In this document: in pieces, positions 39,576 through 43,176 of the stretch
How the letters are laid out: each line of letters opens with the position of its first letter
Numbering within the stretch: position 1 is the stretch's first letter
DNA from: Natronolimnohabitans innermongolicus JCM 12255
GTDB taxonomy: Archaea > Halobacteriota > Halobacteria > Halobacteriales > Natrialbaceae
Direction: 5' to 3'
NCBI RefSeq assembly: GCF_000337215.1
Contig: NZ_AOHZ01000034.1
Span: 1-43,176 of the forward strand
Length of the DNA stretch: 43,176 nt
Program-made: the position numbers and the translations under genes
Notes under the pieces: model-generated
What the model was told of the DNA's origin: nothing
Database searches by the model: none
Seen by the model: the letters and a program-made list of their open reading frames with translations, nothing else

Positions 39576-39636
39576 TTCGAGACGCGACCTGATTTCCAAG
39601 AACGTAGCCGCCGCTCACGTACTGTTCGAAGCGACA

Positions 39637-39720
39637 TGCGAGGGTTGGGATTTGAACCCAAGGACCCCTACGGGAGCGGGTCTTAAGCCCACCGCCGTTG
39701 GCCTGCTTGGCTACCCTCGC
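39637..39720 (-). tRNA. tRNA-Leu (anticodon UAA)
   Basis: The 84-nt gene has the acceptor GCGAGGG pairing with CCCTCGC and discriminator A at 39637. The anticodon stem GTGGG/CCCGC surrounds the loop CTTAAGA, giving anticodon TAA. A long variable arm (class II) is followed by a T arm with GGTTCAAATCC. CCA is not encoded. No intron is seen. The upstream 5' flank is duplicated at 40036-40122. Confidence 0.95.
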
Positions 39721-39807
39721 ACAGAAGTGCACTTGAAGATAGTGCCTCCCTGGGAATGTGCGTTTCGATGTTCGCGTCGCGAGCGAACGACGTGAGCGAG
39801 CGAGTCG
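39711..39807. repeat. Direct repeat, tRNA-Leu 5' end and upstream flank (copy A)
   Basis: This stretch, from the last bases of the intact tRNA 5' end through ACAGAAGTGCACTTGAAG and on to GAACGACGTGAGCG, is repeated at 40027-40122 with only a few changes. It is the promoter side of the tRNA gene, so both copies may keep promoter activity. Confidence 0.85.
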
Positions 39808-39930
39808 AGGAATCCTCCGGCAGGAGGTGACGAGGCTTTTGGTGGAGATGTTGCCAGTGAAGTGAGTGACGAGCGGGTGCAACCCGTGAGTCACGAACGA
39901 AACGCAGCAAAAGGTCCCGGCGTCATCGGT

Positions 39931-40036
39931 CCACCGCCGTTGGCCTGCTTTCCCATCGACCGAGACCAGTGATCGGATTCGCCCAAAATGGGCGAATTCG
40001 TGAACACGTTCGGTCAATGGGAGTGGCTATCCTCGC
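39931..40036 (-). pseudogene. Split partial copy of tRNA-Leu (5' half)
   Basis: On the minus strand this reads GCGAGGATAGCCA (tRNA positions 1-13, one change), then 73 unrelated bases (39951-40023), then AAGCAGGCCAACGGCGGTGG, the next tRNA bases up to the anticodon stem. The 3' half is absent, so no functional tRNA can form. The insert begins and ends with 12-bp inverted repeats (CCCATCGACCGA and TCGGTCAATGGG) and has an inner ATTCGCCC/GGGCGAAT hairpin. Confidence 0.85.
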
Positions 40037-40122
40037 ACAGAAGTGCACTCGAAGATAGTCCTCCCTGGGAATGTGCGTTTCGATGTTCGCGTCGCGAGCG
40101 AACGACGTGAGCGGGCCAGTCG
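40027..40122. repeat. Direct repeat, tRNA-Leu 5' end and upstream flank (copy B)
   Basis: This is the counterpart of 39711-39807, offset by about 316 bp. It starts in the 5' end of the broken tRNA copy and runs to GAACGACGTGAGCG. The few differences (for example CTCGAAG for CTTGAAG) show that the duplication is not brand-new. Confidence 0.85.
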
Positions 40123-42524: not shown

Positions 42525-42890
42525 TCACGCCCGGTGGACCGTCACCGACTCGAGGACGACGTCCTCGCGTGGGCAGTCGTTCGGACCGGTGTCGACGCTA
42601 CCGATCTCGCGGACGGCGTCCATGCCAACGGAAGACTCGCTTGGCTCGTCTTCCGAGCCTCCGCTCGCAGTGCTCGCGGAGACGTCGACGACCGTGCCGA
42701 AGACGGAGTGGCGGTCGTCGAGGTGTGGCTGGGCGTCGAGCGTGATGAAAAACTGCGAGCCGTTCGTGTTCGGGCCGGAGTTGGCCATGCTCAGGACACC
42801 CGCATCGTCGTGGCGCAGCTCCGCGTGGAACTCGTCGTCGAACTGGTAGCCGGGACCGCCGCGACCGGTTTCGATCGGATCGCCCGTTTG
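42525..42890 (-). pseudogene. Cyclophilin-type peptidylprolyl isomerase, 5' part cut off by IS insertion
   Basis: This is the C-terminal 121 codons of a cyclophilin (cis-trans prolyl isomerase). [53 protein letters not shown] and REIGSVDT are diagnostic. The family has FHRVIxxFMIQ just before TGDP. Here that part is replaced by the end of an insertion element, and the frame becomes unrelated upstream of the Gln at 42890. The Met at 42929 would start a chimeric protein lacking the catalytic FHR arginine. An insert of about 20 Ser/Glu-rich residues after FGTVVD is also present. The first half should lie outside the window, beyond the element. Confidence 0.85.
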
Positions 42891-42891
42891 A

Positions 42892-43118
42892 TTGACCTCC
42901 TCCACGCCCTGAAGGACGTGGAATCCGACCATCGGATTTCCGCCGAGCGTGGCGTTCGAGGTTCCAACCCGCACTCAAGGGGAACCGGTAGCATCTCGGA
43001 AGACACAGCCTTCCGACGGTCCGCGAGAGCCAAGCTCTCGCTTGATACCGGAGGAACTCTCGTTTCCTCCCCTGTATAGGGCTGTGACCCGGTCAAACAG
43101 GCCCCGTCGAATACCATG
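42892..43118 (-). ncRNA. Putative TnpB guide RNA (omegaRNA/reRNA) scaffold
   Basis: Downstream of the tnpB stop are five successive stem-loops: 43050-43056/43064-43070 (7 bp), 43023-43030/43034-43041 (8 bp, perfect), 42996-43002/43010-43016 (7 bp), 42960-42965/42981-42986 (6 bp) and a terminal hairpin at 42902-42921 (8 pairs, loop TTCA). TnpB guide RNAs come from exactly this part of such elements, and the guide begins just past the element end. Here that would be TCAAACGGGCGATCCGATCG in the isomerase gene. The 5' end of the RNA probably lies within tnpB. Confidence 0.7.
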
Positions 43119-43176
43119 TCATCGCCGTGCGAACCACCGCTGGTTCGCCACCCCTTGTGGTTCGGGGACGGCATCT
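43119..43176 (-). CDS. tnpB: C-terminal fragment of TnpB-like RNA-guided nuclease
   Basis: The last 18 codons before the stop at 43119-43121 read DAVPEPQGVANQRWFARR. This resembles my memory of haloarchaeal TnpB C-termini, and the structured region that follows supports it. The gene enters from beyond the window end. Catalytic RuvC residues cannot be assessed. Confidence 0.65.
   Translation of the reverse strand, partial: DAVPEPQGVANQRWFARR

Follow-up and report, generated by a model that had tools for sequence, protein, structure and literature searches.

An omegaRNA-like fold in a tnpB-less IS200/IS605-type PATE that interrupts a cyclophilin gene of Natronolimnohabitans innermongolicus

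The window, by which we mean the whole stretch of DNA analysed (43,176 nucleotides), comprises bases 1-43176 of contig C34 (102,969 bp) and stops at a single N at C34:43177. At its far end, the 3' part of a gene for a cyclophilin-type peptidyl-prolyl isomerase is cut off by a short mobile element, and the 5' part of the gene lies outside the window. The disrupted gene seems to start with a lipoprotein-like signal (LGLSLALAGCAS). An intact and complete paralogue of cytoplasmic type was found nearby on the same strand, with 94% identity to the disrupted gene over 202 nt. The locus L013:575-1810 (about 42974-44209 of C34) holds a tandem pair of cyclophilin genes, and the insertion may be tolerated because the tandem genes are redundant. 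Elsewhere in the window, the terminal sequence and flank of a tRNA-Leu (taa) at 39636-39721 on the minus strand recur some 315 bp further along (94% over 36 nt and 97% over 63 nt; window 39636-40122), a repeat that resembles an attachment-site remnant or the trace of an old duplication. The features at the insertion are as follows.

42525-42891, minus strand: 3' part of the cyclophilin-type peptidyl-prolyl isomerase gene, disrupted by the element (Pfam Pro_isomerase, 4.5e-23, profile positions 52-129)
42872-42891, minus strand: predicted guide TCAAACGGGCGATCCGATCG, cyclophilin sequence directly after the right end of the element; this flank is variable between copies
42892-43176, minus strand: the part of the PATE within the window; the element runs on to C34:43301 beyond it

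From right end to left end the element spans 410 bp in the assembly, or about 430 bp once the N gap is allowed for. A gap-free copy on contig C95, counted from TGAT to GGTCAA, measures 430 bp; it is colinear with the sequence on either side of the N in C34, and the comparison indicates that the N hides about 20-21 nt, which are unread in the C34 copy. Neither tnpA nor tnpB was detected in the C34 copy (apart from the unread 20 nt or so) or in the gap-free C95 copy. The sequence-only reading of this region had placed it in the 3' part of a tnpB-like gene; there is no such gene, and the trace of tnpB in this element of about 430 bp is limited to the last 35 codons or so, recognisable as DNA homology.

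The left junction of the C34 element reads from ...GAGTTCATGAT into ACAGACCGATAGCGCATACCTCC..., and the right junction from ...GGAGGTCAA into TCAAACGGGCGATCC.... At the occupied site the element stands between TTCATGAT and TCAAACGG, whereas at the empty site of relatives TTCATGAT is followed directly by YCAGGGCGG. Since orthologous cyclophilin genes read through this empty site without interruption, the insertion is exact and took place without target duplication. The right boundary at 42892, as proposed from the letters alone, is common to all related copies, and the flank beyond it differs copy by copy. At the left end, where a conserved target-adjacent motif had been proposed as a check, TGAT stands directly left of the element at fixed spacing in about 31 of the 33 copies with a recognisable left end; it is also present at the left end of three TnpB elements of the same genome (on contigs C23, C31 and C106). 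These three share with the PATE its ends with near-terminal palindromes, a left hairpin CCTCCGTCTTCAGGCGCAGG and a right hairpin CCACGTCCTTCAGGGCGTGG. The element is a PATE: it is too short for a transposase, lacks tnpA and tnpB, carries near-terminal palindromes, made no target duplication and is inserted 3' of a short target. More specifically, it is a non-autonomous IS200/IS605-type PATE of about 430 bp in a cyclophilin gene.

The bases past the boundary had been attributed to the isomerase gene, and this was confirmed: 42872-42891 is cyclophilin sequence, so that the predicted 20-nt guide is host-derived. In sequence comparison the neighbouring paralogue carries the same TGAT and six mismatches to the guide, four of them at guide positions 4-7, and for this reason it is unlikely to be a target of the guide in spite of its TGAT.

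The minus-strand sequence of 42880-43118 has a folding energy of -109 kcal/mol (z -3.2 relative to dinucleotide shuffles, 1 of 200 of which did as well); for 42945-43118 z is -2.8, and none of 200 shuffles did as well. Rfam gave no match at the gathering threshold within the window. The region 42891-43118, originally described as five stem-loops, is indeed folded, but the structured, omegaRNA-like module is about 285 nt long and runs to about 43172, so that about four fifths of it had been covered; the added part holds two further covarying hairpins linked by loop-loop pairing. The parts of the predicted RNA, from the guide boundary inward, are listed below.

42892-42896, minus strand: terminal GTCAA motif (transposon-encoded motif, TEM), pairing with TTGAC at 43092-43096
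42902-42921, minus strand: right-end hairpin CCACGTCC-TTCA-GGGCGTGG, a distinct hairpin; both-side changes in 5 of 8 pairs, 96% of cells paired
42922-42938, minus strand: distinct hairpin AATCCG-ATGGT-CGGATT; both-side changes in 2 pairs, 95-96% paired
42941-42954, minus strand: distinct hairpin CGCC-ACGCTC-GGCG; other complementary sequences in its place in some copies
42965-42970, minus strand: 3' arm GGGTTG of long-range stem 2, with the 5' arm CAGCCC at 43079-43084; 99.4% paired, mostly invariant
42996-43016, minus strand: accessory hairpin 2 of module A (TCGGAAGGCTGTGTCTTCCGA), distinct; conserved with little covariation, missing from short copies
43023-43041, minus strand: accessory hairpin 1 of module A (GCGAGAGCTTGGCTCTCGC), distinct; conserved without compensatory changes, missing from short copies
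43053-43067, minus strand: distinct hairpin GGAA-ACGAGAG-TTCC inside stem 3; compensatory G-C to A-U in 6 of 28 and 4 of 8 copies
43086-43103, minus strand: stem-1 hairpin GGCCTG-TTTGAC-CGGGTC, with the TEM partner TTGAC (43092-43096) in its loop
43124-43172, minus strand: 5' domain, with the closing stem GCCG/CGGC (43169-43172 and 43124-43127), P1 (43129-43148), P0 (43151-43167) and the loop pairing ACCAC/GTGGT

Read toward the guide, the order is 5' domain, stem 1, stem 2, stem 3 (CAGGGGA/TTCCCCTTG plus inner hairpins), two more hairpins, the right-end hairpin and the terminal GTCAA. The last hairpin had been described as GC-rich and 7 bp from the boundary; the right-end hairpin actually lies 9-10 nt away.

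Copies of the element are numerous. At least five are present in this genome, those on C34 and C95 included, and contig ends break up the others, which is to be expected of repeats. When 100 relatives were searched at the DNA level, 44 genomes from 32 of the 54 genera had matches, although many of these matches, the weaker ones, represent shared ends only. By pattern scan, 17 loci were detected in haloarchaea of several families, Natrinema hispanicum with several copies among them; 27 plasmid records matched, and the phage collection searched gave no match. After near-identical copies were dropped, 38 distinct copies were aligned; some are short (about 370 bp), and the longer ones have additional hairpin modules in one or other of two positions, module A in the case of the window copy. 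Because related copies come in short and longer forms, the five stem-loops first proposed, which are real, amount to a core set plus an optional module.

A 1.49-kb homologue (L089) was considered as a tnpB-bearing parent and rejected, for it is a PATE that encloses a transposase gene of another kind. In this locus (L089:415-1534) the enclosed gene, zinc-ribbon transposase-like, complete and coding for 332 aa, belongs to a different insertion sequence that interrupts the PATE, an example of nested mobile elements. At three other places two right ends of the RNA family lie close together in opposite orientation (L117:1073-1248 of Natrinema pellirubrum pNATPE01, G114:C2:782580-782856 and G127:C3:253852-254060), representing elements inserted side by side. 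Other PATE or TnpB families probably account for the weaker model matches (33-37 bits) on C30, C66, C2, C44, C90 and C20 of this genome, several of which are at contig ends.

Conservation of pairing was then measured against a control in which the partners were slid by 1-3 columns. For the 28 short copies, 94.7% of cells pair (34-52% when slid), with both-side changes in 13 of 40 pairs; for ten long copies of the window's type the level is 95.6% (34-48% slid). The 5' domain is paired in 95.1% (37-47% slid), and in a second subfamily its loop pairing ACCAC/GTGGT is replaced by ACAGAC/GTCTGT. Over the last 85 nt, with three tnpB-bearing elements included, 93.9% of cells are paired against 29-46% slid. 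The GTCAA/TTGAC pairing holds in 98.5% of cells over 41 sequences, against 2-57% slid, and co-changes to GTCAC/GTGAC in three copies; for L099 the automatically chosen loop in this comparison was a decoy, and the true loop is TTGAC. Coding as the cause of conservation was rejected, as the same bases lie in different frames between copies and are broken by stops and 1-2-nt indels.

A relationship with TnpB elements was apparent from several directions. An HMM made from PATE copies alone matched the 3' ends of the tnpB elements on C31, C23 and C106 (E 3e-13 to 4e-7), which have the left hairpin, the right hairpin, the TGAT target and the TTGAC/GTCAA pair in common with the PATE. Those on C23 and C106 carry both tnpA and tnpB, with the Y1 transposase gene intact, and that on C31 carries tnpB. 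All three TnpBs retain the C-terminal TNB domain and, by eye, the RuvC motifs GVDIGEA, VLEDL and an A-D-N-A motif after the zinc fingers. With a covariance model of the last 85 nt, 21 right ends were detected in this genome, of which 8 adjoin TnpB and 5 are this PATE; most of the others are located at contig ends. The optional module A has no counterpart in the RNA of the TnpB elements. In G006, G069 and G126, PATEs are present without a close cognate TnpB, the best TnpBs being about 35-50% identical, so that only a more distant TnpB could serve as partner in these genomes.

Whether the fold was kept after tnpB had been lost was judged from a tree and from a survey of right ends. In a FastTree analysis of the RNA region, a short alignment from which the optional module A was taken out for comparability, all 38 PATE copies split cleanly from 23 tnpB-bearing elements with support 1.0. 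Because of this clean split, the compensatory changes within the PATEs would have arisen in an already tnpB-less lineage, unless exchange with tnpB elements is common. Among 60 right ends from 20 genomes, taken with 1.7 kb upstream, intact tnpB elements showed the TEM pseudoknot together with its supporting stem 1 in 19 of 20 cases, complete PATEs in 12 of 14 and remnants in 6 of 26; the chance level from shuffling was 12%. This contrast is not proof by itself, since complete elements are also younger than remnants; together with the covariation, however, it favours a working RNA. We infer that the RNA fold is preserved after loss of tnpB. The omegaRNA-like architecture recognised in the sequence-only reading is upheld by the TEM pseudoknot, the covarying stems, the homology to the 3' ends of TnpB elements, the left-end TGAT and the variable guide. 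That reading had named in advance, as evidence against itself, a lack of stem conservation in related elements and a truncated tnpB lacking RuvC residues: the stems are conserved, and the loss of tnpB goes further than truncation, the gene being wholly absent, with the omegaRNA reading otherwise well supported.

These features altogether lead us to prefer, as fairly probable, a solo omegaRNA element that is moved by TnpA in trans, guides TnpB in trans and now resides in a cyclophilin gene. That the feature acts like an omegaRNA and derives from one is well supported by the comparisons, and it differs from a canonical TnpB locus in that the putative omegaRNA is not located 3' of a tnpB in cis. 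Guided cleavage had been proposed to help the element persist at this site. In the absence of tnpB, the element cannot direct cleavage alone, and this part of the proposal could apply only with TnpB in trans, suitable forms of which are encoded in the genome. Under this solo-omegaRNA model, the Y1 transposase TnpA of resident full-length relatives would excise and insert the element as single-stranded DNA, at TGAT. After trimming, a transcript in the sense of the host gene would end about 16-20 nt past 42892, and the trimmed RNA would load TnpB supplied in trans. The loaded TnpB would then cut the site (TGAT and, after it, TCAAACGGGCGATCCG) wherever it is uninterrupted, and repair from an occupied copy would put the element back. 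In polyploid haloarchaea such cutting and repair would aid both persistence and spread between genome copies. For other elements, a role of TnpB in retention was proposed (PMC8612924) and a gene-drive effect of TnpB was shown (PMC11870625).

The same fold may be read in other ways. As a passive relic, the element would be moved by TnpA through its end hairpins, and its interior would be leftover tnpB 3' sequence with folds that are now functionless. TnpA transposition independent of TnpB is established for ISDra2 (PMC8612924), and many remnants in the same genomes are devoid of RNA features. Stems 50-280 nt from the right end nevertheless covary inside the tnpB-less clade, and the TEM pseudoknot is nearly as frequent in complete PATEs as in intact TnpB elements, which makes such a relic unlikely in our view. 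Slightly more doubtful again is a decoy or regulatory RNA that titrates TnpB and so shields host or PATE from being cut by it, with no productive cleavage of the PATE's own target: the guide boundary, the TEM and TGAT are all retained and are needed for targeting, not for binding alone, even though the extra hairpin modules are unlike TnpB-borne RNA and haloarchaeal omegaRNAs and one PATE have been described as non-coding RNAs that show expression patterns of their own (PMC12558985, PMC10544981). We give very little credence to a cis-acting tnpB, intact or truncated, of which the window would hold the 3' end. The homology with the last codons and with the RNA of TnpB elements would agree with it, but the left end is only 410 bp away, the 430-bp copy on C95, which has no gap, is colinear with both flanks of the N, and the segment lies in different frames between copies, several with stops.

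Extended to the whole group, the solo-omegaRNA reading describes a widespread haloarchaeal clade, found in several families, that consists of transposon ends plus a selected guide RNA: an RNA-only parasite with borrowed TnpA and TnpB, whose insertion sites are held by the nuclease. On this broader proposal our judgement is evenly poised. PATEs have so far been treated largely as decayed leftovers, and a fold with compensatory changes made after the loss of tnpB would point to a working RNA in trans. It raises the testable question of whether a gene-less element uses the RNA-guided nuclease of another element for its own retention. The set also provides about 40 natural omegaRNA variants with swapped helices, of use for TnpB engineering, and suggests that omegaRNA loci are undercounted where only tnpB genes are counted.

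One haloarchaeal PATE is known to be transcribed: that of the virus HRTV-DL1, 489 bp long, has one end strongly transcribed (PMC10544981). Our model matched the HRTV-DL1 PATE weakly (L156:1004-1089; 23 bits, with a GTCAC end); the reported reads would come from the other strand, provided that the orientation of the library is not inverted. In the open-access literature searched, no paper joining PATEs with omegaRNA was found. The work of Meers et al. 2023 (Nature) on Geobacillus IS605 elements reportedly may mention PATEs with omegaRNA.

The PATEs of Haloquadratum walsbyi (Dyall-Smith et al. 2011; PMC3119063) resemble this element in having no terminal inverted repeats, near-terminal palindromes, no target duplication, a length too short for a transposase and IS605-type ends, and one of them, HqIRS71, was described as retaining part of the TnpB C-terminal coding region (PMC3119063). 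Their cores were regarded as non-coding and partly degenerate, whereas here the core is a covarying, putative omegaRNA and the PATE clade extends over several haloarchaeal families. The omegaRNA (reRNA) of ISDra2 TnpB is alike in its right-end terminus, the guide from the flank, TTGAT/TGAT, the pseudoknot between the stem-1 loop and the TEM, stem 2 around a variable stem 3, and the right-end hairpin (PMC8612924, PMC10097598). The structure of ISDra2 TnpB shows this pseudoknot as pairing of nucleotides -6 to -2 with -102 to -106, the latter in the loop of stem 1, and stem 2, a flexible stem 3 and stem 4 come in the order seen here (PMC10097598). The PATE differs from ISDra2 in lacking tnpB in cis and in having a scaffold that is longer, at about 285 nt, and bears additional hairpin modules as well as the 5' domain with its pairing between loops. 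The sotRNAs/omegaRNAs of Halobacterium salinarum are likewise haloarchaeal and structured, with a pseudoknot between the second hairpin loop and the TEM and a right-end hairpin (Gomes-Filho et al. 2015, as cited in PMC12558985); those described overlap tnpB genes, unlike the present RNA, and the likeness lies in the architecture as published (PMC12558985). PATEs, omegaRNAs and transcription of a PATE are thus each known already, and what this analysis adds is a covariation-backed full omegaRNA in a separate tnpB-less PATE clade, and therefore a probable trans-acting solo omegaRNA.
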